DNA of 64,000 nucleotides. It comes from a virus. The notes beneath the pieces are model-generated. The model had not been told where the DNA came from. It did not search any database and saw only the letters and a list, made by a program, of their open reading frames with translations. The stretch covers positions 173,380 through 237,379 of IMG/VR virus record IMGVR_UViG_3300019458_000021, one strand, 5' to 3'. Below, piece after piece: positions 10,064 through 26,708 of this stretch. Within the stretch, counting starts at the first letter, position 1. Every line of letters begins with the position of its first letter. A program made the position numbers and the translations under genes.

Positions 10064-11302
10064 ATGACAACGTACGTAATCGATTTTTCGGACCCTCTTA
10101 AAGATGGGTTTTCGATCGCACCAGGTGGATTCAACGGACCTGGCGGTTCTGCCTCAAATACATCTCTCCGTCTTTACGGTCGAGGCGCACTAGAATGGGG
10201 CGAATCTGTTAACGAAGACCTCGTCCGTCTTACAGAAAACTTCAACAGCGCTACACCACCTATTACACCAGTTGACGGTATGTTGTGGTTGCGAACAAAG
10301 TACTACTGGCTCCGCACGGCAGTTGATTGGTATGTTCGTGATCCTGATTCACCTGCTGCTTGGGTATTCCTGTCAACAATTGCAACCGGTGGTGTTGTCA
10401 ACGGTGGTGCTGTAGGTACAAACGTAGCTCCAGCTCACGCGATCGGTGTGTATTGGTACACAGGTGGTGCTCCAACTGATCCTCTGACATCGAACCTTGA
10501 CGCGTTTGGTGACCCACTCACACCCACAACATTGTATCGTTGGGACTCAGCATACAAGCAAATTCCAGCCGGTTGGATGCCACAAGCATTCACACAAAAT
10601 GCAGCTGCTCCAACTGCTGCAAACTTCCCGGAGAAGAGCTTGTTGGTTTGGGACGCGTTCCAGGGTGTTAGCGGAACGTTCGTTGCTCCACCAATTTCGA
10701 TTGTTGCACCAACTCAACCAGCACAGGCAACGGAAGGTACATTGTGGTGGGATAGTGTCAACAACATTCTGTATGTGTGGAACGATTTCACGACAACATG
10801 GCAGCCATTGGTTACAGGAGGCGGTGGCGGATCTGGTGATACGACTTATCTACGTCTTGATGGCACAAACACACCAACAGCTAACCTAAACATTGGTGGC
10901 TTCCGTCTGACAAACATTACAACAAACGTAGGTGTAGCAACTGACGCTTTGAGTGTCGGTGCCGCCGATACTCGTTACGTAAACATAACCGGTGATACAA
11001 TGACTGGCGTGCTGGCGATGGGTGCATTCAACATCACCGGCCTACCTGTCATGTCTTACCCTGACTTGGTCAACACCGAGTTTGCAGCAACAAAGAACTA
11101 CGTTAATACTGCAGTCACGTCGATTACAAGCGGTGGCGGTTCGGTTACTGTTCCGTCGGTGTTTGTATCGCCAGCAGTTCCGACCTATAAGGCTGGTGAC
11201 ATCTATGTCTTGGGCGCTGTGATCTACATTGCTATCGGCGTAGGTGTAGGTGCTCCTCCGGGTGGTAACTGGCGACAAGTGTTCCCAGCACAGTACTCAT
11301 AA
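10064..11302 (+). CDS. Tail fibre-like structural protein (412 aa)
   Basis: The N-terminus TYVIDFSDPL is followed by a module NTSLRLYGRGALEWGE ... NEDLVRLTENF ... PVDGMLWL, also present in the proteins at 24423 and 26718, so it is probably a virion docking domain. A second module (GGFRLTNITTN ... ADTRYVNITGDTMTG) is a repeat typical of phage tail fibres (AADTRYVNVTGDTMTG). The Gly-rich linker at about 255 and the short beta C-terminal domain also fit. It stands first in the late operon, behind an ATAAATA promoter and GGGGAAG SD. Confidence 0.8.
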   Translation: MTTYVIDFSDPLKDGFSIAPGGFNGPGGSASNTSLRLYGRGALEWGESVNEDLVRLTENFNSATPPITPVDGMLWLRTKYYWLRTAVDWYVRDPDSPAAWVFLSTIATGGVVNGGAVGTNVAPAHAIGVYWYTGGAPTDPLTSNLDAFGDPLTPTTLYRWDSAYKQIPAGWMPQAFTQNAAAPTAANFPEKSLLVWDAFQGVSGTFVAPPISIVAPTQPAQATEGTLWWDSVNNILYVWNDFTTTWQPLVTGGGGGSGDTTYLRLDGTNTPTANLNIGGFRLTNITTNVGVATDALSVGAADTRYVNITGDTMTGVLAMGAFNITGLPVMSYPDLVNTEFAATKNYVNTAVTSITSGGGSVTVPSVFVSPAVPTYKAGDIYVLGAVIYIAIGVGVGAPPGGNWRQVFPAQYS

Positions 11303-11353: not shown

Positions 11354-12529
11354 ATGACAGGAGCTGCAGTCTCATTCTACAAGCGATCTGACGCGGGTAC
11401 ATTGCGTAAGCATACACCGTCAGCATTCAAAACAGCTCCCCTTGCAATTGCTCCTCAGCTAATGCTGACAGAGCTAATGGTGTATTTGAAGACGACTGAA
11501 ACCTGTCAACTCAACTGCGCACACTGCTTCACCAACGGAATCAACGGACGAAAAATCTACTTCGATCCAGCTCGAACAATCGATTGGTTCCATCGTCTCC
11601 ATGCAGTAAATCCAACCCTGGCGGGAGGAAGTGTCGCTTTTCATGGTGGGGAGCCAATGCTTGCTCCAATCGCCGATATGCGTCGTACATGGGAAGCGTG
11701 CAAGGATTTGTGGCCAACAGTTTGGTGGACAACAACGACAAACCTTGTATACAAACTCGACGATGAAAAGCGCCTATTCTTCAAGGAATGCTTTACAGAC
11801 GGCATCTCAACTTCTTGGGACAAGAATATCCGATTTGATAACGAAAAACAGGAAGCTCTGTGGGCTAAAAACGTCCAAACACTTCTCGATGATGGGCATA
11901 AGATCACGCTTATGGTAAGCTTAAATCGTGCGATCACTGATATGAACCCGGAAGATTTCCTGCGTTGGGTTGGTGATATCGGCGTTCACTATTTGCATCT
12001 TGAACGAATCACCCCAAATGGTAACGCAACTCGCAACCCACACATCCTTCCTTCAAATAAAGAACTCGATGCTTGGATGCTGCGATTATGGGATGCAAGT
12101 TTGAAGCTTGGCACACATAAGTACTTTGCTAATCTGTTTTTGAACGGAATTTTGTCGAGCTTTGTGTCATTAACACATTCGGGTTGTCGTTGTCGAAGTT
12201 GCGAGAAGAAGATTTTCACCCTGAACGCAGATGGAACAATTGGCGGATGTCCAAACAGTGCAGTAGACAACACGTTCGGAACAATGGAAGATGATATTTT
12301 CTCGTTGCTTAGCAGCGAGGGGCGAATCGAAAACATTGCTTGTGAAACACAACGCAATCCGCTGTGCTACACGTGCGATGTTTATGACGTTTGCAACGGT
12401 GATTGTCACCAACTTGCATGGGAAGGCGACGTTTGTGCAAGTCCGAAATCGTTGATGCGTCGATTCAAAGCAGAGAACAATAGAGAACAGTATGAGATGT
12501 TCCTTAACGGGTTCATCGGCAAGGAGTAA
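11354..12529 (+). CDS. Radical SAM/SPASM enzyme (rSAM-1)
   Basis: CxxxCxxC is complete (C51, C55, C58 in ETCQLNCAHC), followed by the GGEP motif (AFHGGEPML) that contacts SAM. A C-terminal SPASM-type region has Cys clusters CRCRSCEKK, GGCPNSA, CYTCDVYDVCNGDC and a final Cys, enough for auxiliary Fe-S clusters. This is the most canonical of the five radical SAM proteins here and resembles anaerobic sulfatase-maturase and peptide-modifying enzymes. It lies 2 bases upstream of the protein with the Cys/His-Ser-Ser tail, its best candidate substrate. Substrate assignment is inference. Confidence 0.9.
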   Translation: MTGAAVSFYKRSDAGTLRKHTPSAFKTAPLAIAPQLMLTELMVYLKTTETCQLNCAHCFTNGINGRKIYFDPARTIDWFHRLHAVNPTLAGGSVAFHGGEPMLAPIADMRRTWEACKDLWPTVWWTTTTNLVYKLDDEKRLFFKECFTDGISTSWDKNIRFDNEKQEALWAKNVQTLLDDGHKITLMVSLNRAITDMNPEDFLRWVGDIGVHYLHLERITPNGNATRNPHILPSNKELDAWMLRLWDASLKLGTHKYFANLFLNGILSSFVSLTHSGCRCRSCEKKIFTLNADGTIGGCPNSAVDNTFGTMEDDIFSLLSSEGRIENIACETQRNPLCYTCDVYDVCNGDCHQLAWEGDVCASPKSLMRRFKAENNREQYEMFLNGFIGKE

Positions 12530-12531
12530 CT

Positions 12532-13185
12532 ATGGCTATCGCTGGCACAGACATCACGAAAGACAATATCACTGGATCAGGTGGCGTTGACTTGAACTCG
12601 TTCAAGCAACAAATCACCGACGTTGTCAACGCACTCACAAAAACAACAAGCGTGTCCGCAAACGGGACTGCACTAGGTCAAAAGCCATTTGGTAGTGGTG
12701 CACCAATTAGTGGATCGTTGTCAAGCACCAACTATGGTGGAACACCTCCTCTGTCTGCGCCACTTGTCGCTCCTGGCACGGTGACGAATTCACCACAAGC
12801 AAGTGACATTGCAGGTGCGAACATTGCAGCAGCCACTCTGATCACATTGTTCCAAAACACAGCTGTATTACTGTCCCGTGTTCGTCGCTATTCAATGGTA
12901 AAAACATACCTTAGTCCAGCGCCTGTTATCCAACTATCACTTACAGAACCAGGCCGCTATGGTTATCTGACAACAACGTACCAAGCAAATCCAGCAACAA
13001 CAACACCAGCAATCACGACATCTTTGGCAGCTCTTACTGGCGATATTAGTGCAGCAACGTTAAACACAGTAATTGACAACGTTGACACCGCAATTACGAA
13101 CCACAGAAACACAACCGTCGCGTTCACGGAAACGTGGTGTCACTCAAGCTGTCACAGCAGTCATAGTTCAAGGAACCGTCGCTAA
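12532..13185 (+). CDS. Virion-like protein with C-terminal Cys/His-Ser-Ser repeat (candidate radical SAM substrate)
   Basis: This 217-residue protein has an N-terminal part that is Ala/Thr/Gly/Ser-rich like a fibre protein (ITGSGGVDLNSF, PFGSGAPISGS) with a helical middle. Residues 200-217 change abruptly to TETWCHSSCHSSHSSRNRR (last 19 residues): a 3-4-residue periodic C-H-S-S, C-H-S-S, H-S-S ending in basic residues. His-Xaa-Ser (Hxs) systems have similar tandem His/Ser tails modified by two radical SAM proteins. Here radical SAM genes flank the protein. It may be a structural protein whose tail is cross-linked or otherwise modified; metal binding by the tail is an alternative. Confidence 0.7.
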   Translation: MAIAGTDITKDNITGSGGVDLNSFKQQITDVVNALTKTTSVSANGTALGQKPFGSGAPISGSLSSTNYGGTPPLSAPLVAPGTVTNSPQASDIAGANIAAATLITLFQNTAVLLSRVRRYSMVKTYLSPAPVIQLSLTEPGRYGYLTTTYQANPATTTPAITTSLAALTGDISAATLNTVIDNVDTAITNHRNTTVAFTETWCHSSCHSSHSSRNRR

Positions 13186-13949
13186 TGACCACAGTTACAA
13201 CAGAACTTCCGCTTTCAATGGACGCCTTGCGTCAGGTAATTACACAACCAGATGCAGGAGTGGTTGTTGACTACAACAACAGTAACCTCAAAGGCCGTGC
13301 AGCGCTCATTTACATGACGAATACAAACTTACCAAATGTTGCTCTGAACATGACAGATGTGTCTCTCGAAGAGAAGTTTGTACTCGTTGACGACTACATC
13401 ACTCACAAGTCAATCCTGCATGTAGCACAACTAGTCAACACCGTTTTGAATGTGTTATTCGCCGTTCGGAAAGTTGACATTGGTGCTGAACAAGACATAT
13501 TGGATCAAGTGTCGCTATTTCCACAAGAACATGTCGGCGAATATCTTGCAAATCCAACACGAGCTGAACACATCAACAAGCTGATTGAACTTCTCGACAG
13601 TCTACCTCTGTACGCTGTAACGTGTTCAACATCATTCCGCGAAGTATACGGTAAAGGAAAAGAAGCGTTTGAGCCGGTTAACGACATTGATCATACTGGT
13701 TTCACATTCGTCCACCTGTTGACTCATCCGTTGTTCCTCGAATATTTCACACAACCAGCTACGACGACACTGAAGTATTACGTTCAGCAGTTCGACGAGT
13801 ACATGTATAACGGAAAATCGTTGTTTCCATTTTTGGTAAACTCGCCTGTATTCGGTATTCTTGAGTGTTACATCACAGGGGCGGTGGACCTTGATCAGCT
13901 GCTTACAGCACACTCAGAAATGAATGCTTTGGAAGGAGCTGCAGCCTAA
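13185..13949 (+). CDS. Hypothetical protein of the radical SAM island (254 aa)
   Basis: Not recognised. The N-terminus is Thr-rich (MTTVTTELPLSMDAL), followed by an alpha/beta segment (GRAALIYMTNTNLPNVALN) and a helical C-terminal half with many aromatic residues. The start overlaps the stop of the previous gene by one base, so it is tightly coupled to the Cys/His-Ser-Ser protein and could be a carrier or recognition subunit. Confidence 0.65.
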   Translation: MTTVTTELPLSMDALRQVITQPDAGVVVDYNNSNLKGRAALIYMTNTNLPNVALNMTDVSLEEKFVLVDDYITHKSILHVAQLVNTVLNVLFAVRKVDIGAEQDILDQVSLFPQEHVGEYLANPTRAEHINKLIELLDSLPLYAVTCSTSFREVYGKGKEAFEPVNDIDHTGFTFVHLLTHPLFLEYFTQPATTTLKYYVQQFDEYMYNGKSLFPFLVNSPVFGILECYITGAVDLDQLLTAHSEMNALEGAAA

Positions 13950-15052
13950 TGCTACACCTGTTCAACAAGATATACGTCAAGGGAGATCATCTTGTGAAAG
14001 GTTCGCGAGATGCAATTATCATCTCGCCGACCTATGGAAATGTTCCATTTTACACGACGAAATTCTCAACTCGGGCAAACAACGAAAAAACAGGCCAACT
14101 GTGCTATTCAGCAACGTCGCTCAAAGAACTGCTCGACACTCACTTTGGTGGATCTGATGCAAAATTCTTCAATTACCTCATGAAATGGCCTGCCGAGAAA
14201 CGATTAACGATCTACGCCGATCTTCCGACAATGGTTGATATTGCAACGAGATTCTTCAAAACAGTATTCCCAAAGATGACGGAAGACACATATGTTGTGG
14301 TGATGAAGTTACTGCTCTCCCGTATCAACTACTACCTAGGCGGAGCTGTTTTGCCATTCGTAACATTAACAGAGGACCAGGCAAATTCATACCGCGTCGA
14401 AACACTTCAAATTCTTGAAGATGTTGCTGGATTGCGCCATCGATTTCAAGAAACTGCACGCTGGCGCCTGACAAAAGTGGCACGTGACAGTATCATCCGC
14501 AACTGCAGCGTTGAATACCAATTGGCGACCTATCTAACAAATCCAAAATGGGCACATGCTCGTGCGTTTGAGAAAAAGGCTGTGTCAATGGCTAAGAAGC
14601 AAATCATTCACGAATATGCTCTAGAAATTAAAGGAGCTATTGTTCGGAACTTCATGAATCTTATCGTTCTTGAACCGACAGCAACGTTCAATTCTCTGAA
14701 AGATTCACTCGAGACGTTTGTTCAACAGTTCCCTCAGTATGCATTTGTTCTCGATGATGGATTTGTGCCAGACAATGCCGAGCATATCTGGCTTAAATAC
14801 AACATGGAGGATTTGAAAACAGTGTTTGATCGCGTGACACACAAGTTCGTGTTCATTGCACAGGACTACACACCTCTGTTGAAGAAATTGACGTTCGAAG
14901 ATGTGTTGAAGTATGAGCTGGACCGGCCATATCGCTGCTTTTTGTTCAATGGTGACAACTATCAGGAAACTGTCAACTCTTACTTGATTGACTATATCCT
15001 GAATGCTTATCGGATGAACCAACACGAACAAATTCGCCAGCTGGCACTGTAA
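13949..15052 (+). CDS. Hypothetical protein, paralogue A of a tandem pair (367 aa)
   Basis: It opens MLHLFNKIYVKGD and shares DAIIISP, the EYQLATYL helix (about 190) and a C-terminal V-N-[ST]-Y-L-[IL]-D-[YH] stretch with the next protein (15062), with which it aligns over the whole length. No catalytic motif is visible; it is rich in aromatic and charged residues and predicted soluble. Its function is unknown. Tandem duplication inside a modification island suggests two specialised copies, or a heterodimer. Confidence 0.7.
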   Translation: MLHLFNKIYVKGDHLVKGSRDAIIISPTYGNVPFYTTKFSTRANNEKTGQLCYSATSLKELLDTHFGGSDAKFFNYLMKWPAEKRLTIYADLPTMVDIATRFFKTVFPKMTEDTYVVVMKLLLSRINYYLGGAVLPFVTLTEDQANSYRVETLQILEDVAGLRHRFQETARWRLTKVARDSIIRNCSVEYQLATYLTNPKWAHARAFEKKAVSMAKKQIIHEYALEIKGAIVRNFMNLIVLEPTATFNSLKDSLETFVQQFPQYAFVLDDGFVPDNAEHIWLKYNMEDLKTVFDRVTHKFVFIAQDYTPLLKKLTFEDVLKYELDRPYRCFLFNGDNYQETVNSYLIDYILNAYRMNQHEQIRQLAL

Positions 15053-15061
15053 GGGAAAACA

Positions 15062-16132
15062 ATGTTACACCTACTAAACAAAGTCTACATTAAACCAGAC
15101 GCTGATTTCCAGCGAGGTCACGATGCAATTATCATCTCTCCGAAAACGAAGCTGTTTGACAGCGAACTTTTTGGTGTGGATGACATCGACTTTGGTAAGA
15201 TCCACTTCACCGCAGAAACATTCGATGCTCTTGTCGAGGTATTTGGAAGTGAAGACGCTTTTGTACAGTGGTTGGTTTATTTCGATCCGTCGACTCGTCT
15301 GGTTGTACATTGTGATCCAGCTACATTCGAGCACATTCTGGTTCGATGGCTTAAGACGATCCTTCCAAACATGGACGGTTCGAGTTTTCACAGTCTGATT
15401 CGCATAATTTACGCTCGATACGGTTACCAGTTTGGTTATCCGTACGTTCCATTTGTTCGCCTAACACCAGACGCTGCTGCTGTGTACAAGAGCTTCTTAG
15501 CTCGTATTCCTTCAAAGGAACAAGCGGTGCAGATGTGGAATCAGGCACAGCCATACACTGTGAATGTCGATTCTGCTGCTGTAAGTTTGGAATACCAACT
15601 CGCCACATACTTGGATGATCCGACTTGGGAACATACCGACCAGCTGAAAGCAAAAGTCATCACCATGGTCAAGAAGTTTCAAGTTGGTTCACTACTCGAT
15701 GTAAAAGAAGTCATGCTTGGGCACTTGTATATGTTACCAGACTTTGATCAGTTGAAAGATACACTGGTACACTATGTTACAGAACACCTCGAATACACAT
15801 TTTTGCTGGACATGAAACTGACCTCAGACGACTACACACGATTGTACGATCAATACAATACAGCTGTACTGCGTCAGATCTACATTGATTACTTCAAAAT
15901 GCATGCGGATATTTTTGACGAGACACAAGTTGAGAAAGATCACTTCCTCGATCCTGCAATCACATTTGAACAAATCATCGACAATGAGCTAGCTTCAATC
16001 GCTACGCGACAACTGCTTGGCTCGTGGGAATATGGCCTGACAGTCAACACTTACCTGCTAGACCACCTCTTTGCGCTCGAGAGAGCGAATGACCAGGCTG
16101 AGTTGAAGAAGTTCTCGCTCCTAAGGAGTTAG
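15062..16132 (+). CDS. Hypothetical protein, paralogue B of a tandem pair (356 aa)
   Basis: This is a full-length relative of the preceding gene: MLHLLNKVYIKPD at the start, DAIIISPK, LVVHCDPATFEHI against LTIYADLPTMVDI, EYQLATYLDDP, and VNTYLLDHLF near the end. It has AAGGGAAAAC before the ATG. It ends 2 bases before the second radical SAM gene. Its function is unknown. Confidence 0.7.
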   Translation: MLHLLNKVYIKPDADFQRGHDAIIISPKTKLFDSELFGVDDIDFGKIHFTAETFDALVEVFGSEDAFVQWLVYFDPSTRLVVHCDPATFEHILVRWLKTILPNMDGSSFHSLIRIIYARYGYQFGYPYVPFVRLTPDAAAVYKSFLARIPSKEQAVQMWNQAQPYTVNVDSAAVSLEYQLATYLDDPTWEHTDQLKAKVITMVKKFQVGSLLDVKEVMLGHLYMLPDFDQLKDTLVHYVTEHLEYTFLLDMKLTSDDYTRLYDQYNTAVLRQIYIDYFKMHADIFDETQVEKDHFLDPAITFEQIIDNELASIATRQLLGSWEYGLTVNTYLLDHLFALERANDQAELKKFSLLRS

Positions 16133-16134
16133 CG

Positions 16135-17172
16135 ATGAGCATGGATTTCGTAATCGACTTCAACCTTGAGCTGTTACATGGTTGCAAGTGGAACTGCACT
16201 GGCTGCAATATTGGTAAGGAAGAACAAGACGGCTTTCTTGACGGCGATTTCGATCGTTTGATGCATTTGTTTGAGGATCTCGAGCGAAACTTTCACATCC
16301 TATCAAACGTTGCAATCACACCAACCGACTTCATTGTTTCGAACAACGCAGAGCAAATTTTCGTTCCAGAACTCAAGCTCATGCTTGACAAGTTCAAGGC
16401 GGTAACATTGAACACAACATTCCTGCACGATGATGACGTGCTGGAATACTGGGCAGCCAAACTACGACCGCTCCTCAAGGGCAATACTCTGAAGTTTAGT
16501 GTTCCTGTCGAACCAGATCACTATATGAACAAGAAGTACATGGCAAAGATCCTTCACAATCGTGACTACATAGTCAGTTTGCTTCCAGAAACGAAATACA
16601 CAAAGACGTACTTGATCGGCAATTTGTACGAGTACAAGAAGTTCGTCGACTTCGAATTCTACAGCGAAGACTTTCACGATAAGTGGGATGGACACCTCGA
16701 TTTGGTGATTACAGAGGGGCGTCTTAATTTGACGAATCCGTTCAACCGTCAGCGGTTGCGTCATATGATCGAATATCAGAACGATCTTTACAATCGCTCT
16801 GTTGAACACGATCACGGCAAAATCATCGTCAACTTCACGAATGGCAAACGTCACGAAGGCTATGATAAGGACTACGTGTACAAAAACGGTCGGATCTACG
16901 CACCAGTATTCGTTGGAGAACCGCTGGTCACGTTTGAGGAAGGCTACTATCTGGATCGATCAGTTGAGTGGAACACAGACAATCTCGTTGAGTTTGAGAA
17001 TCGAATGACCGTAGAAAGCTTTGAATATCTGCCACAAACACAACACTGTGCTACCTGCGAATTTGCGAATGCGTGTGTTGCTCGTGGTCTTACCAAGTTG
17101 ATGAAAACCTTGAAAGTTACGGACTGCTTGGCACCAAAGCCGGCTTTCACGTTCTTGAGGCAGGTTGCATGA
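16135..17172 (+). CDS. Radical SAM protein with degenerate core (rSAM-2)
   Basis: CxxxCxxC is present as C17-C21-C24 (HGCKWNCTGC). The usual GGE motif is not seen at the expected place, so SAM binding may differ. The C-terminus carries the cluster CATCEFANACVARG ... DC, a reduced SPASM/twitch-like Cys set. It is 345 residues, near family length. Its stop codon overlaps the start of the next radical SAM gene (ATGA), so the two are translationally coupled and may act together. Confidence 0.8.
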   Translation: MSMDFVIDFNLELLHGCKWNCTGCNIGKEEQDGFLDGDFDRLMHLFEDLERNFHILSNVAITPTDFIVSNNAEQIFVPELKLMLDKFKAVTLNTTFLHDDDVLEYWAAKLRPLLKGNTLKFSVPVEPDHYMNKKYMAKILHNRDYIVSLLPETKYTKTYLIGNLYEYKKFVDFEFYSEDFHDKWDGHLDLVITEGRLNLTNPFNRQRLRHMIEYQNDLYNRSVEHDHGKIIVNFTNGKRHEGYDKDYVYKNGRIYAPVFVGEPLVTFEEGYYLDRSVEWNTDNLVEFENRMTVESFEYLPQTQHCATCEFANACVARGLTKLMKTLKVTDCLAPKPAFTFLRQVA

Positions 17173-18311
17173 GTCCAATCAAATTCTACCGCACGAGACC
17201 TGAACTAGAGTTCGTGCCTGATAATCGGCACATGGAATTGATCATCAAGCCTACAGAGGCATGTAACTTCAAATGCACGTTCTGCTCGAGCACGAACATC
17301 ACAGACGAAAAAGCTAAAGTCCTCGACTTAGAGTCGATCTACGCCTTCCTCAAGCGGTTCCCCAACACACACTCAATCATTGTCAATGGTGGAGATCCAT
17401 TGATGGTCAAGCCATGGTATTACTGGGAGATCATCAAATACTGCGACGACAACAACTTGCCGACAAACCTTAGCTTCACCACGAACCTATGGGCATTCTA
17501 TAAGAAACCAGAGATGTGGGTAGACCTGTTCCGACACGATCGTGTCGGTGTCACAACGTCTTTTAACTACGGTAACACACGGCGAATTACAGATGATGAA
17601 GTATTCACAGAAGATATTTTCTGGAAGGTCAGCGATAAGGTGCTAGAGTATATTGGTTATCGACCAGATTTTATCTCAGTGATTACAGACGAGAACGAAG
17701 ATACGGCAATAGATAATGTTCGTCTTGCACAGGCTATGAGTGTCGAATGTAAGCTAAACTACGCAATGGCAAGCGGAATACAAAGTGCACCATATCAATT
17801 GTCAAAGATTTATCGCACATATACAGAGATCTATGAACTAGGACTCTGGCCGTGGGAATATAATACCAAGCAGATGATGCAACGTTTGGACGGCAAAGCA
17901 TCTAGCTGTCCACAACTACGTTCCTGTGATGAAGGCATTCGATGCTTACAACCAAGTGGTGATTATTACTCATGTGGCGCATTTGGTGATGATCGAGAAT
18001 ATCCAATCAACTTCCAACAAGAAGTGATTGAAGGTAAGTTCTTCACACCGCTTCAATCAGCACCAGAATTGCTGTCACTAAAAGAAGAATGTCACACATG
18101 TCCGATGTTCAAAATTTGCAATGGATGTCGTAAGACGATCACAGACATGAAACGTCATAATGTCGTTGAGGAACATTGCACATTGATGAAGACAATCGCG
18201 AAAAAGATCATCAATATCAATGACGAATCGGCTAACTTACTAATTGATCGCACGTTAAAGAAGGGAGCTCGCAAGTATGAGCCTTGTACACTAAATACCG
18301 TTCTCGCATAA
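17169..18311 (+). CDS. Radical SAM/SPASM enzyme (rSAM-3)
   Basis: C32-C36-C39 (ACNFKCTFC), a GGDP in place of GGEP (VNGGDPLMV), and SPASM-type Cys groups: CPQLRSC, IRCLQPSGDYYSCG, then ECHTCPMFKICNGC and a final HC. It is 380 residues from the ATG at 17169, which overlaps the rSAM-2 stop. A longer frame to 17073 lies inside rSAM-2 and is not used. This domain set is typical of peptide-modifying enzymes that form thioether or C-C links. An HNH gene follows directly. Confidence 0.88.
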   Translation: MSPIKFYRTRPELEFVPDNRHMELIIKPTEACNFKCTFCSSTNITDEKAKVLDLESIYAFLKRFPNTHSIIVNGGDPLMVKPWYYWEIIKYCDDNNLPTNLSFTTNLWAFYKKPEMWVDLFRHDRVGVTTSFNYGNTRRITDDEVFTEDIFWKVSDKVLEYIGYRPDFISVITDENEDTAIDNVRLAQAMSVECKLNYAMASGIQSAPYQLSKIYRTYTEIYELGLWPWEYNTKQMMQRLDGKASSCPQLRSCDEGIRCLQPSGDYYSCGAFGDDREYPINFQQEVIEGKFFTPLQSAPELLSLKEECHTCPMFKICNGCRKTITDMKRHNVVEEHCTLMKTIAKKIININDESANLLIDRTLKKGARKYEPCTLNTVLA

Positions 18312-18338
18312 ATGAGCGTCGAGCCTTGGAGGACTGAT

Positions 18339-18836
18339 ATGAAGCTAACAGAAAAACAGAAAGAGGTTCGGCGACGTTATTACAAAGAGAACAGAACTGA
18401 GATTCTGGAACATCAAAAGAACCGACGCACTGCCCAGAAAAAACACATTACACAGCTCGGAAAAACATGGCGTGAAAACAACAAAGACAAAACGAAGCGA
18501 TACGGGGAAAATCACTACAAGAATCACAAAGATGATTACACCACACGCTCCAGAAGGTGGCGCGAAAACAACCCCGAGCGTAAAATATTGGCCCGGCTGC
18601 GGGCAGGAGCGAAGAAAGAGCATATTCCATTCAATCTAGAGTTGGAAGACGTCAAGATACCGAATATATGTCCAGTTTTAGGCATTGCACTTGAAAGAGG
18701 AAGGGAAGCTTTTAAGAAACTACAATGTCCGTCGGCCGATCGAATTGTTCCAAAACTTGGATACGTTCGTGGTAATGTGCGATTTATAAGTCTTCGCGCC
18801 AACTTGATTAAATCGAACCGTCGGCTGAAGAACTGA
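18339..18836 (+). CDS. HNH homing-type endonuclease
   Basis: The N-terminal ~100 residues are strongly basic and repetitive (RRRYYKENRTEILEHQ, WRENNKDKTKRYGENHYK), typical of a DNA-grip region. The C-terminal part has the HNH-like run NICPVLGIAL ... SADRIVPKLGYVRGNVRFIS ... RANLIKSN, as in phage orphan HNH endonucleases. GGAGG at 18329-18333 fits the ATG at 18339; an in-frame ATG at 18312 has no SD. It sits between two radical SAM genes without disrupting them, as free-standing homing endonucleases do. Confidence 0.85.
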   Translation: MKLTEKQKEVRRRYYKENRTEILEHQKNRRTAQKKHITQLGKTWRENNKDKTKRYGENHYKNHKDDYTTRSRRWRENNPERKILARLRAGAKKEHIPFNLELEDVKIPNICPVLGIALERGREAFKKLQCPSADRIVPKLGYVRGNVRFISLRANLIKSNRRLKN

Positions 18837-18881
18837 TAAAAGTATACGAGTATATTGTACGAGAACGAGCGAGAATGACTG

Positions 18882-19979
18882 ATGAACCTTGCACAGCTAG
18901 TACTGCAACGCAAGCGTGATACCGATCAAGAATACACGATTCACTTGTTTGAGAAGTGCAATCTAACGTGTAATTTCTGTTGGCAAGATCACACTGCGAA
19001 TATTGGTCTGGATACTGTTCGACAAAAGATTCCAATCTTATGTGAGATGCTTGATGAAGATCCACATCACAAGTATACAATCAACATCATGGGTGGAGAG
19101 GTTTTTGCTGATGATATCTTCACGGAAAAGATGTGGGGGGATTACTACGCTCTATGCTGGTGGTCACATAAACATGTTGAGAAACTAGGGAAGGACATTA
19201 CGTTCAATTTCGTAACCAATCTCGTCACCACGAAGACAAAAGAAATTTTTGATTTGCTCCACGCATTGCGACGGGAAGGTGTTAAGGTTAAACTGACAAC
19301 GTCTTACGACGCAAAGGGTCGCTTCAATAAAGCTCAACTAGCAACGTTCAAAGAGAACATTGAAGTATTTCGTAATGAGCTTGAAGGAATCAGCATGTTG
19401 CTCACAAAGCCAGTAATCAAGCAGCTTGTTGAAGGAAAGGACGAATATTTCAAGTATCTGTACGACCAGGGGTTCTACATCTACTTCGACTACTATTCAC
19501 CAGAAGACGACTATCTGTTGGTCGGTCCATCTGATAAGGATCTGCTTAAGGCGTTCTACTTCCTGGTGGACAACTACCCGAATGTACATCCGATCAAAGA
19601 GTGGATTGAGAACCACACAAACTTCATGTCTTGTAGAAGCTCCAAACTGATCAACCCTGATGGTACGAAGTGCATGTGTGGGAATTTGCTGTTAGATAAT
19701 AAGCACGTTGTAACGTTCTTTAAGGCAAAGATACAAAAGGCTGACAACGATGAAATTGAGAACAATTTTTTGAACAGATGGGATTGTTTGTCGTGCGAAT
19801 ATTTCAGTCGTTGCACGTTGGGATGCTTCGTCCAACACGATTTCATGAAGCGCGGACAGATGAAAGAGTGCCCTTTCAAGCTGACTTTCGATAAAATCAC
19901 CAAGGGAACAGAAGTTGACATCGATCTCTTGGAAACATATTATGGGGAAGACCCTACAACTGACAATCGGGTACAGTGA
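18882..19979 (+). CDS. Radical SAM/SPASM enzyme (rSAM-4)
   Basis: C26-C30-C33 (KCNLTCNFC), a GGE motif (IMGGEVFAD) and a C-terminal Cys-rich region: MSCRSSKLINPDGTKCMCG, then DCLSCEYFSRCTLGC and KECPF. It is 365 residues. There is no strong Shine-Dalgarno (GAGCGAGA only). The 3' end overlaps the next gene by 38 bases in another frame, so translation of that gene probably depends on this one. Confidence 0.88.
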   Translation: MNLAQLVLQRKRDTDQEYTIHLFEKCNLTCNFCWQDHTANIGLDTVRQKIPILCEMLDEDPHHKYTINIMGGEVFADDIFTEKMWGDYYALCWWSHKHVEKLGKDITFNFVTNLVTTKTKEIFDLLHALRREGVKVKLTTSYDAKGRFNKAQLATFKENIEVFRNELEGISMLLTKPVIKQLVEGKDEYFKYLYDQGFYIYFDYYSPEDDYLLVGPSDKDLLKAFYFLVDNYPNVHPIKEWIENHTNFMSCRSSKLINPDGTKCMCGNLLLDNKHVVTFFKAKIQKADNDEIENNFLNRWDCLSCEYFSRCTLGCFVQHDFMKRGQMKECPFKLTFDKITKGTEVDIDLLETYYGEDPTTDNRVQ

Positions 19980-20409
19980 TCTATATATTGCACAAGTACT
20001 CCAGCACAGTATTCGTCGTCGTGCATCAATTGGCACAGATTTTCGTTTTGTGTTGCGTGTGTCGAATGTAGTAGAATCACCGCTTCTGTGGAACTATGAG
20101 GGAGATTGGTCAATCTTCCTCGACGCGAAAATGCTTTGTTTGTGCGACATAAAGGAACTTACGGAACATTTCGACCCGCAATACGCCGTTCAGTTTGTTA
20201 AGTTCGCTGAACAACCATTGGCTGTAGTTGTATTCAATCACAACAAATTTGGCCGAACACCCGATCTCCATGACAAAGAAATTGGAGACCTGCCTTCAGA
20301 GTTTAACAGCGAATTCCCAACAGCAAAAATTCTTCGGTACGACAACGACCCATACAACTCTCAACTTTGGAAAGATGAACTCGATGACATGCTCCGAACT
20401 TACAGTTGA
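19942..20409 (+). CDS. Short glycosyltransferase-like protein (GT-A type, tentative)
   Basis: A 155-residue protein. The central run SIFLDAKMLCLCDIKEL resembles the 'FLDADMLCLGDI-EL' segment that carries the DxD metal site of GT-A sugar transferases, but the Asp pair reads DAK. Farther on, VVVFNHNKF and IGDLPSEFN match typical acceptor-side elements (L-P-x-x-[WF]-N). It is shorter than normal enzymes and may be inactive or a minimal fold. The ATG at 19942 is preferred over 19915 because GGAAAC precedes it. Confidence 0.45.
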   Translation: MGKTLQLTIGYSDLYIAQVLQHSIRRRASIGTDFRFVLRVSNVVESPLLWNYEGDWSIFLDAKMLCLCDIKELTEHFDPQYAVQFVKFAEQPLAVVVFNHNKFGRTPDLHDKEIGDLPSEFNSEFPTAKILRYDNDPYNSQLWKDELDDMLRTYS

Positions 20410-21244
20410 GAACTTCATCTCCCAGCAATGGATCCATAAAAATCGCTACGTACTTAACGCAAGAACAGTGACACCTGAATGTGTTGAGTCCTTGAACGCA
20501 CAGGCATTCAAACGATTCCAGTTATCAAATCATCAACGCAAATACTCGAAGTCGCCAATTCGAATCGATATCTGTGAGTGGCTAGAACGTCGGGCGTCAT
20601 TCTCTCTACATGAATACGACTACACAATTCCACCAGGGTATGTAACGCCAATTGAGTTTTTTAGCGAGGCGCAGCCATGGCGAATGCTGTTGCTTTCTTT
20701 CGATCCATATGCGTCAATCCTGCAGCGAAAGCTGTTCACCGATGCACGATTCGTTGAACGTGCATACGAAGAAAAGGACGATATGTATTCACCGAAATCG
20801 TTCCTGTTGGAACAGATTGAACTTGGATGGCTTGGCTACAGCGAATTTGAAGACTGTATTTTCATTCACCACATACAAGTGCGAGGTGCACTCAAAGAAG
20901 GAATGCGATACAATGACCTTGTTTGGTTCTATAGATACTTGGTTCGTGCATTTACGCAGATGTTGCCCGAAGGGAAGTTGAAGCATGTGTACGCACCAGA
21001 TGCAGCAACGTTGTCGCTGTACAGCGAACGTCTGGTCGGGAATGCGTCAATAGTACTTCCGTATTCGCGGCATGTGCTACGAAAGAGCGACTTTCATACG
21101 GTTGGCTGGGACGCGTTTGCAACACAATCACCAATCGCGGCGGCTAAATGCAAGATGCGTGATGTGTTACTGCCAGACGAGATAACACTTTGGAGATACG
21201 ATTATAATGATCCACACACTTTGGCACGACAGAATTCTGATTGA
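20384..21244 (+). CDS. Hypothetical protein of the radical SAM island (286 aa)
   Basis: Not recognised. It is an alpha/beta protein; the central SEFEDCIFIHHIQVRGALKEG followed by a helix has the look of an acyltransferase (GNAT-like) beta-bulge region, but the acetyl-CoA loop is not evident. It overlaps the upstream gene by 26 bases and the downstream 2OG oxygenase by 38, so it is part of the same translationally linked set. An ATG at 20375 is an alternative start. Confidence 0.6.
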   Translation: MTCSELTVENFISQQWIHKNRYVLNARTVTPECVESLNAQAFKRFQLSNHQRKYSKSPIRIDICEWLERRASFSLHEYDYTIPPGYVTPIEFFSEAQPWRMLLLSFDPYASILQRKLFTDARFVERAYEEKDDMYSPKSFLLEQIELGWLGYSEFEDCIFIHHIQVRGALKEGMRYNDLVWFYRYLVRAFTQMLPEGKLKHVYAPDAATLSLYSERLVGNASIVLPYSRHVLRKSDFHTVGWDAFATQSPIAAAKCKMRDVLLPDEITLWRYDYNDPHTLARQNSD

Positions 21245-21809
21245 AGACGATTTGCTTGACCCGCAAGGCTGGAGTAATTTTCGAGACTGGGTCGGAGTGG
21301 AATTTGGTCGTCGACAGACAAAACCAATTATGTCAATCGACCATCTCAACTTGCCACCTGAACTCGGTTACTACGCAGCCATGCTTGACGGTGCCGTGAC
21401 AAACTATTGCGAAGCTTGTGGCATAGACTATGCAATGGATATTGTAAACCTACAGGCAACTTGGGTTGAGAATTACAACGAAACAAGTCACCATGAATTC
21501 GTACATGAACCACATCACGACCTTTCGGAAGGTGGCTATCTTGTTGCTGTGTATTATGTATGTACAGATGTGAATTCACTAACAAGATTTGTTGGGGGAG
21601 ACCTGGCGATATACAAGGCACTGACATATAGTGAATACCCCGAGGGAATGGTTCACGTTCGTGCAATACCGAACCGGTTGGTTGTTTTTCCTGCTATGCT
21701 TTACCATCGCATCAAACCATACTTCGGTCGTTCCCCACGAATTGCATTGTCGGCTGTGTTGTCTAAATCAGCCGACACAGTTCAAAACAAGAGAGTTTGC
21801 ACACTATGA
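21207..21809 (+). CDS. 2-oxoglutarate/Fe(II)-dependent oxygenase (2OG-1)
   Basis: A 200-residue double-stranded beta-helix protein. The iron facial triad is visible as HxD (EPHHDLSEGG) and a distal His in AMLYHRIKPYFG, followed about 10 residues on by Arg (SPRIALS) that would bind 2-oxoglutarate. GGDLAIY and IPNRLVVFP are typical strands of prolyl-hydroxylase-like phage enzymes. Substrates of such enzymes are often protein side chains. It lies next to a second oxygenase and between radical SAM genes, which suggests action on the same product. Confidence 0.8.
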   Translation: MIHTLWHDRILIEDDLLDPQGWSNFRDWVGVEFGRRQTKPIMSIDHLNLPPELGYYAAMLDGAVTNYCEACGIDYAMDIVNLQATWVENYNETSHHEFVHEPHHDLSEGGYLVAVYYVCTDVNSLTRFVGGDLAIYKALTYSEYPEGMVHVRAIPNRLVVFPAMLYHRIKPYFGRSPRIALSAVLSKSADTVQNKRVCTL

Positions 21810-22441
21810 ACTTCTACAAATTGTGGGCGTATCCAATTTACACATGCGAAAACGTTCTCCTCGACACCGAACGTCAGCAGGTGGCCGACTATGTGCTACA
21901 TCGATTCAAAGATCTGGACGACGACAAAATAGTCAACGTTCACGTTGCTGTTGATGGCGAGTTGGACAAAATTCCAAGCGATCTAAAGCTGTTGTATTAC
22001 GCATTGTATGTGAAGTTTTCTCAATATGTCTTCGAATGCGGAAATCCTCTTGAAGAGTACTTTCTTCACAGGATTGCTATGAATAAGACTCGCGCATTCG
22101 TTCCAGGACGAGACGAAGGTGTGATTTATGAATTGCACGCGGACGATAGCGTGAATGACATTACATGCGTCTACTACGCTCAAATCGATACAGTACACGC
22201 TAATGGTGGTAGTGCCGGCGGCGACCTGCGAATCTACAACCGAGCGGTGCTCGACACAACCGATGATACACGCGAAGCGTATGTCACTTGCAAACCAGTT
22301 GACAATAAAGCAGTAATGTTCCCGGGCAGTTTGATTCACGAGGTTCGTCCATATTTTGGTGAGCGTCCTCGAGTTAGTCTAAACTACAAGTTTCGTCGTT
22401 ACCGCAGGAACATCTCTTTGAAACCAAAGCTGGTAATATGA
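21806..22441 (+). CDS. 2-oxoglutarate/Fe(II)-dependent oxygenase (2OG-2)
   Basis: A 211-residue relative of 2OG-1. HxD is in YELHADDSVND, the distal His in GSLIHEVRPYFG, and the 2OG-binding Arg in ERPRVSLNY. GGDLRIYN and NKAVMFPG match the strands seen in 2OG-1. The ATG at 21806 overlaps the 2OG-1 stop by 4 bases; an upstream in-frame TTG at 21797 is possible. It overlaps rSAM-5 by 4 bases. Confidence 0.8.
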   Translation: MNFYKLWAYPIYTCENVLLDTERQQVADYVLHRFKDLDDDKIVNVHVAVDGELDKIPSDLKLLYYALYVKFSQYVFECGNPLEEYFLHRIAMNKTRAFVPGRDEGVIYELHADDSVNDITCVYYAQIDTVHANGGSAGGDLRIYNRAVLDTTDDTREAYVTCKPVDNKAVMFPGSLIHEVRPYFGERPRVSLNYKFRRYRRNISLKPKLVI

Positions 22442-23382
22442 AACCAGTCACTCTATCAATCAATCCACTGTATCTGTGCAACTTTCGGTGCAAGTTTTGT
22501 TATCTAACACCAGAACAACTTGCAGACAAGAAGAAAATCGATCATGTCCGTCTTGACCAAATGCTCTCTGAGGTCACAATGGTTACGGCAATCCAACACG
22601 TTGACTTGTACGGTGGAGAAATTGCACTGCTTTCCGATGAGTACTTTGATGATATGAAGCGGATCATCCGACAGTACTACTACAAGCCGATCAACGTTGT
22701 CACTAACCTGTCGAGAGTTCCGAAATTTTTCATGCCACCTGACATTCAATTGTCCGTGAGTTTTGATTTCGATTGTCGCGAACGGTACGAAGAAGTGTAC
22801 AGAAACATGGCAACTGTTCAGAAGCCGCTGCATGTTCTGGTTTTAGCTAGCAGGTGCTTAATCGACAAAGACGTCGACTACATGATTATGATGCTGAACA
22901 CATTACAAAATGTTCGGACAGTTGAGATCAAACCGTATAGCACGAATCAAGCAAACCAACATACCGTGTCGCACGCAGACTTCGAACGATTCGTTAAACG
23001 TTGGTTGACGAGTCGGATTCCAAAACGATTTGCGTTTATCAACGAGCAGAAGATTATCGAAGCGCTTCGCGGATCGTACAACGCATTTAGTGATGACCAT
23101 GTCTATATCACCCCTAATGGCAAGTTTGCGGTGCTTGATTTCGACGAGAGCGATCACGAGAAGTTCACAGAGCTCGACCACTTTGTGGACTATGTCCGGT
23201 GGACAGAACATGAGAAACAACTAATCGGAAGCAATTCATACTGCCAAACCTGTCCATATTTCGGTCACTGTTTGACAGAACACTATCGTTGGGTGAAAGA
23301 TCTCGAAAACTCGTGCAATGGTTACAGGTTCCTTTTGGATTGGTGCAATGAAAGAATGGAAAATCCGGCAGCAAATCTATGA
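22438..23382 (+). CDS. Radical SAM protein with C-terminal Cys cluster (rSAM-5)
   Basis: C14-C18-C21 (YLCNFRCKFC) lie very near the N-terminus, and the GGE motif is intact (DLYGGEIAL). A shortened C-terminal cluster reads YCQTCPYFGHC ... SC, enough for one auxiliary Fe-S site (twitch-like). The 314-residue protein begins inside the last codons of 2OG-2 (ATGA overlap), an arrangement that implies the oxygenases and this enzyme are made together. Confidence 0.88.
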   Translation: MKPVTLSINPLYLCNFRCKFCYLTPEQLADKKKIDHVRLDQMLSEVTMVTAIQHVDLYGGEIALLSDEYFDDMKRIIRQYYYKPINVVTNLSRVPKFFMPPDIQLSVSFDFDCRERYEEVYRNMATVQKPLHVLVLASRCLIDKDVDYMIMMLNTLQNVRTVEIKPYSTNQANQHTVSHADFERFVKRWLTSRIPKRFAFINEQKIIEALRGSYNAFSDDHVYITPNGKFAVLDFDESDHEKFTELDHFVDYVRWTEHEKQLIGSNSYCQTCPYFGHCLTEHYRWVKDLENSCNGYRFLLDWCNERMENPAANL

Positions 23383-23776
23383 TCGTACGTGGCACGACCA
23401 CGATGACTTGGTCTGCCATTCAAAGATCATTGACACCAGTGAACTGGGATTTGATCCCAGCTTTGCAGGCAAAGTTGGTTCATATTTTATGTGGGAATGG
23501 GATGTTCTCGTCTATCCGGAGAAGTCGTATGCAGTTGCAATGGTTTACGCAAAACTGCTCGAGAAATACTTCGGTGAGAACTTCTATGAGGTGTTAGACG
23601 ATCAAGATTTGTTGCTTGGCGACAAGTACTTTGTTCGCTACAGCAAAAACAAAGAATGGTACGACAAGTTGATCGCAACTATGGACGAATGGAAATTGTG
23701 GGACTTTGAAAACAGCAAGTTACCGCAGGTTCAGGCGACCATCACGTACTTTAAGAAGGAGTTTCAGCTGATCTAA
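23348..23776 (+). CDS. Hypothetical protein ending the radical SAM island (142 aa)
   Basis: Not recognised. It is acidic and aromatic-rich (VGSYFMWEWDVLVYPEKSYA, YDKLIATMDEWKLWDFE) with no membrane segment. It starts inside rSAM-5 (ATG at 23348 after GGATTGGTGC) and is the last gene before a late promoter and an HNH endonuclease. It could be a small recognition or partner subunit of rSAM-5. Confidence 0.6.
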   Translation: MKEWKIRQQIYDRTWHDHDDLVCHSKIIDTSELGFDPSFAGKVGSYFMWEWDVLVYPEKSYAVAMVYAKLLEKYFGENFYEVLDDQDLLLGDKYFVRYSKNKEWYDKLIATMDEWKLWDFENSKLPQVQATITYFKKEFQLI

Positions 23777-23801: not shown

Positions 23802-23828
23802 AGCGTTTATGGAAAACCATGAAACGCT
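23802..23828 (+). promoter_or_regulatory. Hairpin sequestering the HNH endonuclease start codon
   Basis: Arms 23802-23812 and 23817-23828 pair over 11 bp with one bulged G (23821) and an AAAA loop. The start codon 23819-23821 lies in the right arm and the weak GGA SD at the apex. Full-length read-through RNA would hide the start. A late transcript from about 23807 loses the lower half of the stem. This parallels the known control of T4 I-TevI. Confidence 0.7.
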
Positions 23829-24422: not shown

Positions 24423-26708
24423 ATGGCTGATTACATCATTAACTTCACCGACCCTATGAATGGTTCGTTCCTCATCAAACCGATGACGACGAACGGACCA
24501 GCGTCTCCGGCAGCAGTTACACCCCTCGACCCACAAGCGACTTCAGCAAATACATCGATTGTTCTACTCGGTAAAGGGATGTTTGAATATGGCGAACGTG
24601 TGGCAGAATCGTTCGTTCATATGTTGGAACATTTCGCGTTTCCGACGCCCCCAGCATATCCGATTCAGGGTCAAATTTGGTTTGATAATGGAACTCCTGG
24701 TCTGTTCGTCTATGACGGTGCAGTATGGAATCCAATTCTTGTTGGCAGTTTTCCGATTGCCGGCGATCTTGATATGGGTGGATTCAAGATCGAGAATCTT
24801 GGCGATCCTGATAGCGCCGACGATGCCGTTAACTTAGGATTTGCTGACACTCGATACGTGAACGTAACTGGTGATACAATGACAGGTACGTTGACTGTGT
24901 CGTCAGCAGACATCGTTTTGACAGGAGCAGGTTCGCAAATCACATTACCAAACGCACCTGTTGCTGCTACCGATGGTGTTAATAAAGCGTTTGTTGATGC
25001 ATTGACTTTGGACAGTTTGGTAGATGTTATCATCACGGTTCCTGTTCTTAACCAATTGTTGCGTTATAACGGTGTAAACTGGGTCAACGCAACAGTTCTC
25101 ATTCCAAGTGTTCTTGATGATCTGTCTGATGTTGCGATCACCGCTCCTGTTGTTGGTGATGTTCTGACATTCGACGGCTTGGTGTGGATTAACCAAGCGC
25201 CAGCTGCGTTTACAGATCGATATGTAACGGCTGGTGCAATGATCGGAACAACTCTGCAATTGTCGTTCTCAACAGCTGTCCCTTCACCAACGATCAACAT
25301 TGCTGGCATTGCGCCGGACGGTCATACTCATCTTGCACCACAGGTGCTGTACAACACGAATCAGCCAGACCCAACATGGGTCGGTCCACCACCAACATAT
25401 CCGTATCCGTTCTACAACGACAGCTACCTACGCGAATTGCTCATCACGACCGCAACGGGCTATCCAAATCCACAATTTCCGTATGGCCTCAACTTGCAGA
25501 CAATCATCAACACAACCGACCAGGCTCTATATCAGCTTGTGGATATTGATCGACAGGAAATTCTGCAGGGGGATGGCGCAACATCGCTGTTTACGATGCG
25601 GGGCCAGTATTTGGTCGGTCGTAACAAAGTTAAGATTTTCAACAACGGCGTCAAACAATACGCAAGCCAGCGCGCTGTTCTCAACGTGGAGTTCGAAACA
25701 CAAGTAGCACCAATTCAATCAATTAACGTTGGATCTGATACTGGTCTTGCCGACGGTACGTATTCATTTGATATCATCGTCAATGGTACATTGTTCACAG
25801 GTGTTACTGCACCAACTGTTACTGTTGCAGAGGACAGGGACGTTACGGCAGTTGATGGAACAGGAGGACCGTTAGGTCCTCTCACCACGACCGGAACAAC
25901 TTGGACGATTACCGATCCACTCGGCGATTTCGCTGACACACTTGGAATAGGTACAATTTTCACTGTGACGGGAGCTGGTCCGGGTAGCGGCACCTACGTT
26001 GTTTTGACAGCAACGTGGGATGGAATTGGCGAGACAGACATCGTCATTGATCCGTCGGGTCTTGGAGTACCTGGCATGTTTACAACTATTCCAATTGGCA
26101 CAACGGTCACGCTCGGTGTCACTACACTACGCAAACCATACTACTTCCAACAACTAAAAGAAGATCTCGATGTTAGCTTTGTGGCCAATGCGATTCCGGC
26201 GATTGTGTCATTTTACAACAGCACTCTATCGTTCGAATCAGAAGTTGTTGGAACCGGCTCGACTGTGTTTTATGTGCCCGTGGCGAATGACTTGTTTGAC
26301 GAAATGCTAACAGCCGGTGTTGTAACTCCAGACTTTGTTTACTCGGGTAGTATGGTGAGTATTGACGCAGCTGACAACACTGTCAGCCCAGACGAGTTCC
26401 AAGTAATTGGTGATTACACTGGTGCCTTTCCAACTGGTGTTCGCTTCATTGTGTTCGGTTCTATAGGCAATGACGATGAATACGTCACAGTAGCCAACGC
26501 AACTTTTGCTGCCGGTTTTACAACAATCTATGTGACCAACGGAGCGATTTCTGTCAACGAAGCAAGCGGCGCCGGTACGGGAGATATTTTCTTTGAGCGC
26601 ACACTTGCATATGACGAAGTTGGTACACCGAATAACAATTCCGATCAAATTCAGTTCACTGTTGCACCAGCCACCGGTGATCTAATCGAAGTATTGATTG
26701 CACCATAA
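24423..26708 (+). CDS. Tail fibre-like structural protein (761 aa)
   Basis: The N-terminus ADYIINFTDPM and the module NTSIVLLGKGMFEYGE ... PIQGQIWFDNG match the fibre protein at 10064. They are followed by the DTRYVNVTGDTMTG repeat, a middle with three V-L-[DN]-[QD]-L-[LS] repeats, and a C-terminal beta module (FIVFGSIGNDDEY ... NATFAAGFTTIYVTNG) that reappears in the protein at 34383. The length and modularity fit a side or long tail fibre subunit. It is preceded by a late promoter. Confidence 0.8.
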   Translation: MADYIINFTDPMNGSFLIKPMTTNGPASPAAVTPLDPQATSANTSIVLLGKGMFEYGERVAESFVHMLEHFAFPTPPAYPIQGQIWFDNGTPGLFVYDGAVWNPILVGSFPIAGDLDMGGFKIENLGDPDSADDAVNLGFADTRYVNVTGDTMTGTLTVSSADIVLTGAGSQITLPNAPVAATDGVNKAFVDALTLDSLVDVIITVPVLNQLLRYNGVNWVNATVLIPSVLDDLSDVAITAPVVGDVLTFDGLVWINQAPAAFTDRYVTAGAMIGTTLQLSFSTAVPSPTINIAGIAPDGHTHLAPQVLYNTNQPDPTWVGPPPTYPYPFYNDSYLRELLITTATGYPNPQFPYGLNLQTIINTTDQALYQLVDIDRQEILQGDGATSLFTMRGQYLVGRNKVKIFNNGVKQYASQRAVLNVEFETQVAPIQSINVGSDTGLADGTYSFDIIVNGTLFTGVTAPTVTVAEDRDVTAVDGTGGPLGPLTTTGTTWTITDPLGDFADTLGIGTIFTVTGAGPGSGTYVVLTATWDGIGETDIVIDPSGLGVPGMFTTIPIGTTVTLGVTTLRKPYYFQQLKEDLDVSFVANAIPAIVSFYNSTLSFESEVVGTGSTVFYVPVANDLFDEMLTAGVVTPDFVYSGSMVSIDAADNTVSPDEFQVIGDYTGAFPTGVRFIVFGSIGNDDEYVTVANATFAAGFTTIYVTNGAISVNEASGAGTGDIFFERTLAYDEVGTPNNNSDQIQFTVAPATGDLIEVLIAP

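Follow-up and report, generated by a model that had tools for sequence, protein, structure and literature searches.

The window analyzed here is a 64,000-nucleotide stretch of the viral record IMGVR_UViG_3300019458_000021 (positions 173,380 to 237,379) and is part of a 237-kb viral contig, which a match to the Gp23 capsid protein (E = 1.3e-84) assigns to a T4-like phage. Between the fiber-type genes 10064 and 24423 (genes are named here by their first positions in the window) lies a tight operon, with close spacing and gene overlaps, which encodes five radical S-adenosylmethionine (rSAM) proteins or candidates, two 2-oxoglutarate (2OG) oxygenases, and a fiber-type protein with an unusual C-terminal tail. 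The genes are arranged in the order rSAM-A, 12532, P1, two copies of P2, rSAM-E, rSAM-C, an HNH-like gene, rSAM-B, two more genes without an assigned function, the two 2OG oxygenases, rSAM-D, P3, and a second HNH-like gene (Table 1). A sequence-only reading had described this region as a protein-modification island within a tail-fiber operon. The open reading frames lie where it had placed them, the overlaps and tight spacing were confirmed, and its fiber genes on both sides were borne out by an N-terminal fiber domain that 10064 and 24423 share with each other and with gp176 of phage Atu_ph07.

The protein encoded directly after rSAM-A (i.e., the 12532 product) ends in ETWCHSSCHSSHSSRNRR, and its counterparts end in (CHxS)3-R-G-R-R. 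In cultured jumbo phages with the same rSAM-A, a different-looking protein occupies the same position and has the same kind of end (Atu_ph07 gp170, CHSSCHASCHNSRSRR; Phosso, CHTSCHASCHSSRSRR; SURPRISE13 and FLC6/8, CHSSCHTSCHGSRGRR; SNUABM_DT01, CHTSCHTSCHSARGRR). The Cys and His residues are invariant in all 142 distinct 16-residue tails (142/142), and C203, H204, C207, H208, and H211 are the only invariant positions among 83 to 86 aligned proteins. In the window phage and in L009, which is closely related to it, the third Cys is missing and the third His is retained. The number of CHxx units per tail ranges from two to five or more, a variability of repeat number that resembles that of the cores of ribosomally synthesized and posttranslationally modified peptides (RiPPs), and one tail group ends in CHSNCHGSCHGS[I/L], without arginines. 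The tail codons vary between synonyms (TGC, 225, and TGT, 255; CAT, 267, and CAC, 213), and the sequence identity is approximately 80% in the tail versus approximately 30% in the body; selection therefore acts on the tail peptide. The invariant Cys/His tail strongly supports the 12532 product as the candidate substrate, at which the sequence-only reading had hinted.

In tblastn searches, the whole 12532 protein and the tail proteins of relatives did not find each other across phage groups, since the body diverges too strongly and the tail is not long enough; we therefore used pattern scans. A degenerate DNA pattern of the tail, which did not include the stop codon, was run over IMG/VR; all totals from scans are to be read as minimum numbers, and some ratios are raised by contigs that are nearly identical. 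At least 120 stretches matched, with 137 matches among those listed, and a stop codon immediately followed the tail in 136 of these 137 viral matches. An rSAM gene was located within 5 kb of the tail in 98 of the 100 listed loci with at least 2.5 kb of flank, and in both remaining loci the sequence runs on for only a few hundred bases after the tail. Relatives of rSAM-A were encoded in 361 stretches; the gene adjoins a tail gene in nearly all relatives, and a tail was found within 4 kb in 54/54 of the loci examined that had room downstream. Loci with P1 (PHROG 20767) had a recognized tail in 78 of 80 cases, with one of the other two lacking upstream sequence and one showing a shorter tail (CHSNCHINRSRR) on inspection; thus, a CHxx tail was present in 79/79 P1 loci having upstream sequence and an rSAM gene in 80/80. 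A (CHxx)4 scan with a looser pattern, which doubles as a control for specificity, returned mostly low-complexity chance matches; the module occurred only where the hit was in frame and had S, N, D, or V at the fourth position. Tail and enzymes thus predict one another in three independent searches (from the tail pattern, from rSAM-A, and from P1), and at virtually every locus the tail is tied to rSAM genes and to PHROG 20767. In 257 Gb of bacterial and archaeal genomes, the tail pattern was found in 14 records, 11 of which hold real tails, all in metagenome bins; two matches in cultured isolates were due to chance.

Table 1. Positions in the window of the module, its flanking fiber-type genes, and erpA, with the evidence for each assignment
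Feature	Position	Strand	Evidence
Fiber-type structural protein just upstream	10064..11302	+	N-terminal domain common to 24423, 26718, and Atu_ph07 gp176; blastp E 4e-15 (24423), 1.6e-9 (gp176)
rSAM-A, radical SAM/SPASM	11354..12529	+	PHROG 1802 E 2.1e-57; CxxxCxxC at residue 51; SPASM CX2CX5CX3C at 338
Substrate candidate, fiber-type protein with C-terminal tail CHSSCHSSHSSRNRR	12532..13185	+	Alignments (invariant C203, H204, C207, H208, H211); pattern scan
CHxS tail, codons C203 to R217, stop TAA 13183-13185	13138..13182	+	Direct sequence reading; invariance
P1, PHROG 20767, near-universal partner, fold without known match	13185..13949	+	PHROG 20767 E 1.1e-35
P2 copy 1, PHROG 36207 partner	13949..15052	+	PHROG 36207 E 1.7e-10
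P2 copy 2, paralog of copy 1	15062..16132	+	One iterated profile recovers both copies
rSAM-E, probable divergent radical SAM	16135..17172	+	Cys motifs kept in relatives
rSAM-C, radical SAM with C-terminal Cys cluster	17169..18311	+	PF04055 7.5e-9, above cut-off; 61% identity to SURPRISE13 homolog
rSAM-B, radical SAM/SPASM	18882..19979	+	PHROG 1802 2.1e-41; SPASM CX2CX5CX3C at 302
2OG-Fe(II) oxygenase 1	21207..21809	+	PF13759 2.5e-4 (subthreshold); PHROG 81 2.1e-10
2OG-Fe(II) oxygenase 2	21797..22441	+	PF13640 2.5e-7 and PF13759 1.9e-6, both above cut-off
rSAM-D, radical SAM with shorter (twitch-like) Cys cluster	22438..23382	+	PF04055 9e-6; PHROG 1802 1.5e-35
P3, PHROG 20737, small conserved partner	23348..23776	+	PHROG 20737 7.5e-30
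Fiber-type protein downstream	24423..26708	+	Common N-terminal fiber domain
ErpA, Fe-S cluster insertion protein	49151..49501	-	NCBIfam ErpA equivalog 173 bits (cut-off 117); PF01521 8.8e-22

Each of the five proteins (11354, 16135, 17169, 18882, and 22438) carries one intact CxxxCxxC motif, as the sequence-only reading had noted, and a C-terminal C-x2-C-x5-C cluster, which is a full CX2CX5CX3C in rSAM-A and rSAM-B, CX2CX5CX2C in rSAM-C, and CX2CX5C in rSAM-D and rSAM-E. Its radical SAM assignment held in profile searches for four of the five: 11354, 17169, 18882, and 22438 match PF04055 with E values of 0.0036 to 7.5e-9 (17169 alone clears the Pfam cut-off), account for all PF04055 matches of the whole contig, and match PHROG 1802 ("radical SAM"; E = 1.5e-35 to 2.1e-57). 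The fifth, 16135 (rSAM-E), kept the motifs and matched none of the rSAM profiles searched. Among 54 diverse relatives of rSAM-E, CxxxCxxC is present in 54/54 and C-x2-C-x5-C in 51/54, and when deep family alignments were compared with hhalign, rSAM-E and rSAM-D matched along 268 columns (E = 8e-5; probability, 61%). On the basis of these conserved motifs and the family alignment, 16135 is probably a divergent radical SAM protein. At the superfamily level, the nearest profiles of the rSAM enzymes belong mostly to enzymes that mature peptides or proteins (DynA, sulfatase maturase, PapB, and DarE). The TIGR04085 SPASM scores of rSAM-A and rSAM-C are slightly under the cut-off, and none of the rSAM proteins passes a curated NCBIfam RiPP-maturase equivalog (best score, 42 bits, against cut-offs of 349 to 650). 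The rSAM-A tree has long branches and unsettled support, and it gives no direction of transfer.

Both 2OG/Fe(II) oxygenases named in the sequence-only reading were recovered, 21797 by PF13640 and PF13759 and 21207, which is just under the Pfam cut-off, by PHROG 81 (2OG-Fe(II) oxygenase). P2 is present in more than 100 loci and P3 in 49 loci. The AlphaFold model of P1 is of high confidence (predicted local distance difference test [pLDDT] score, 93) and found no match in a fold search against the PDB; an adaptor role for P1 is a guess. ErpA, which scores above its curated cut-off, is a likely helper of the phage rSAM enzymes, and its presence fits a phage that needs to load many Fe-S enzymes.

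The module was found in hundreds of viral contigs and in unrelated jumbo phages. Its cultured carriers are jumbo phages (T4-like Atu_ph07 and Phosso; phiKZ-like FLC6, SURPRISE13, and SNUABM_DT01), and many carriers are pelagiphage-like; RSF1 and RSL2 were not among the matches of the homolog search. The module contains four to about ten rSAM genes, and relatives have extra genes, including those for a cupin/JmjC-like protein, further oxygenases, and a B12-binding-type rSAM with a PF02310 match; therefore, the module differs in its enzymes while the tail is kept. The B12-binding-type proteins are encoded at L013 15116-17008 and L054 14439-16163. Tandem pairs of tail genes occur at L126 11753-13467 and L088 2523-3286, as in a large contig group with four to five rSAM-E-type genes. 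At L297 1642-2865 (minus strand), PT repeats come after the CHxS repeats, and the C-terminal part beyond them bears a resemblance to a self-cleaving Hint domain.

Several features suggest that the tail protein is a virion component. Gene 10064 also gives weak matches to virion/tail-fiber PHROGs, and the genes upstream of the module in relatives are fiber-like, with a C-terminal part that is Peptidase_G2-like or matches a tail-fiber PHROG. In pelagiphage-like contigs, the module follows a homolog of the baseplate wedge protein gp8 and a protein of approximately 2,000 amino acids. In L289 (2486-3433, minus strand), which has many tail-fiber PHROG matches, the body and the CHxS repeats are directly followed by Peptidase_S74 (E = 1.5e-11). 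S74 domains assist the folding of trimeric fibers and afterwards release themselves by self-cleavage; in L289, the CHxS segment would then lie near the mature end. In L315 (622-1929, plus strand), a BspA-type leucine-rich repeat domain is inserted in the tail-protein body, as in an adhesin. The body of the 12532 product matches only PHROG 35144, a family without an assigned function, and its relatives include one S74 fusion and one weak tail-spike match. Its AlphaFold model is of moderate quality (pLDDT, 74; last block of residues, 55) and, in a viral structure library, matches other tail proteins (that of Atu_ph07 among them) and further phage proteins, including one of 178 amino acids; because of these matches, a single fold appears to underlie the divergent bodies. 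In Atu_ph07, the virion proteins detected by mass spectrometry cluster at coding sequences (CDSs) 170 to 215 (PMC6102473), and the tail protein is gp170, at the CDS 170 boundary of that cluster. Together, the fiber neighbors, the S74 fusion of L289, and this boundary position support the virion component that the sequence-only reading had inferred.

We propose, with a probability of about 0.72, that the module is a RiPP-like system whose four or five rSAM enzymes, with 2OG oxygenases as helpers, act on the exposed tail at the C terminus of a fiber-type virion protein and modify it. The 12532 product would be a fiber- or adhesin-type protein whose folded body carries the exposed CHxS tail. P1 and P2 would present the tail to rSAM-A to rSAM-E, which, with clusters supplied by the phage ErpA, would act on its Cys, His, or Ser residues. 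Common outcomes of SPASM enzymes acting on peptides are Cys thioether or C-C cross-links, and these would be the most likely products; given the adjacency of Cys and His, a sulfur-imidazole or metal-linked product is also possible. The 2OG oxygenases and, in relatives, the cupin/JmjC-like protein may add hydroxyl groups. As no leader would be removed, the finished knob, stiffened and perhaps metal binding, would stay at the fiber end, with a role in host recognition or entry. Both the chemistry and the biological role are predictions from sequence. For the broader proposal, that a mobile module of unrelated phages builds a cross-linked, hydroxylated RiPP-like fiber-tip knob as a receptor-binding or envelope-engaging device (i.e., a virion-displayed RiPP), we put the odds at about even.

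Several points weigh against the modification of a virion tail by these enzymes. The modification is predicted from the genes, and 16135 is a probable rather than an established enzyme. A RiPP recognition element (RRE)-like domain was not recognized (P1 and P2 have no Pfam match of this kind, and the P1 model has no PDB match), nor was a protease or exporter recognized in the module. Radical SAM chemistry is oxygen sensitive, and many of the hosts live in oxic water. The "fiber" label derives from context and one S74 fusion, and the model of the 12532 body had no match among solved structures in the PDB. The presence of gp170 in Atu_ph07 virions is suggested only by its place at the cluster boundary (PMC6102473).

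Four other explanations were weighed. The tail might mainly form an Fe or Zn site of the fiber tip, like the HxH motif of T4 gp37, with the rSAM enzymes only tuning or assisting it or acting elsewhere. The alternation of Cys and His is metal binding in character, HxH iron motifs in fiber tips are established for T4 and have been proposed for marine phages (PMC11705849), and many carriers are pelagiphage-like. However, a plain metal site does not require four to ten rSAM genes, although such genes occur at every tail locus with room for them, and Cys is unusual in HxH fiber sites; we therefore consider this explanation unlikely. The usual presence, just upstream, of a fiber gene with its own conserved C-terminal domain would suit a tail that serves as a recognition tag or carrier recruiting the enzymes to another virion protein (e.g., the upstream fiber). 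The upstream fibers differ in kind between phage groups, however, and the invariant Cys/His residues and variable repeat number resemble reaction sites, so that a tag of this kind seems quite improbable.

A peptide cut from the 12532 protein (i.e., a bacteriocin or a host-takeover RiPP that is not part of the virion) is very improbable. The repeats are RiPP-like and R-x-R-R could be a processing site, but this motif forms the extreme C terminus, beyond the core, and the CHGS[IL] group lacks it; the lack of a recognized protease or exporter, the S74 fusion, and the fiber neighbors also argue against release. The enzymes might instead serve auxiliary metabolism, in the synthesis or decoration of a small molecule, a sugar, or a nucleotide, with the tail protein as a chance neighbor, and rSAM-rich T4-like marine phages were earlier treated in terms of Fe-S metabolism (PMC5332604). 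This we find hardly credible, since in unrelated phages the tail, the rSAM genes, and P1 are each predictive of the others and the closest profiles are mostly those of peptide or protein maturases.

The proposed tail modification resembles the rSAM/SPASM RiPP systems (sactipeptides, ranthipeptides, and darobactin/dynobactin) in that rSAM/SPASM enzymes adjoin a gene with a conserved core-like C-terminal repeat. It differs in its substrate (a fiber-type protein of 120 to 435 amino acids), in having up to approximately ten rSAM genes, in that an RRE, a protease, and an exporter are not recognized, and in rSAM scores far under the curated equivalog cut-offs. In place of a short precursor with a leader and a C-terminal core, there is a long structural-type protein with a core-like repeat only. 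The module would operate in the manner of a RiPP pathway, but it has neither a short precursor nor a recognized RRE, and its rSAM proteins score under all curated maturase cut-offs; we therefore class it as a RiPP-like variant outside the named classes. The His-Xaa-Ser system (HxsA, HxsB, HxsC, and HxsD) likewise combines two or more rSAM enzymes with a repeat containing H-x-S, but the unit here is C-H-x-S with a period of 4, and rSAM-C scores 32.7 bits against HxsC (cut-off, 267.9). No HxsA match was found at the locus, which we do not assign to that system, and the HxsA/HxsB literature searched offered no chemistry to borrow. Anaerobic sulfatase maturase and QhpD-type maturation also involve rSAM/SPASM enzymes that modify a protein subunit, but the substrate and context differ, and rSAM-A reaches 42 bits against a sulfatase-maturase cut-off of 349. 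Fiber tips of the T4 gp37 HxH type share a His-rich end and have no Cys-His-x-Ser unit; we know of no modifying enzymes for them.

Virion maturation is known to involve proteolysis, isopeptide bonds, phosphorylation, and glycosylation. The proposed chemical remodeling of the exposed end of a phage's own protein would be a previously undescribed kind of viral maturation. Radical SAM genes were listed earlier for FLC6 (PMC8066314), RP12/RP31 (PMC5468394), S13 (PMC11898562), and 332-Vera (PMC12390700), and no report of the tail or of the rSAM substrate in such phages was found in the literature searched. A T4-like marine contig has 12 rSAM genes together with Fe-S assembly genes (PMC5332604), and Aeromonas phage 332-Vera has 8 rSAM genes in its structural cluster, which was termed highly unusual (PMC12390700). 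Both probably carry this or a related module; neither a substrate nor a CHxS tail is named in the text searched of either report. If the proposal is correct, the tailoring of a viral structural protein by radical SAM enzymes would bring a new chemistry to virus assembly and account for the rSAM and Fe-S genes that have been puzzling in many marine phages. It would also open up a large and so far untapped family of enzymes that modify peptides and whose substrate tail is clearly defined.

Other features of the window and its contig were also noted. The two HNH-like genes (18312-18836 and 23819-24397), which lie in and after the island, are related to each other and, by their motifs, resemble homing endonucleases; they are outside the conserved module and rare among relatives. 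The GT-A-like call of the sequence-only reading for 19915-20409, which is prompted by a FLDAKMLCLCDI stretch, found no support in Pfam or NCBIfam profiles; the gene is possibly a truncated relative of phage glycosyltransferases. Downstream of the module, 26718-31052 and 31062-33287 encode fiber-like proteins with long Gly-rich repeats and RCC1-like "GAAHTLGIKSDGTLWAWG" repeats. The Gp23 capsid match (G000:C1:116518-117723) crosses three TGA codons and one TAA codon in frame, which may reflect an assembly error, an intron-like insert, or recoding.

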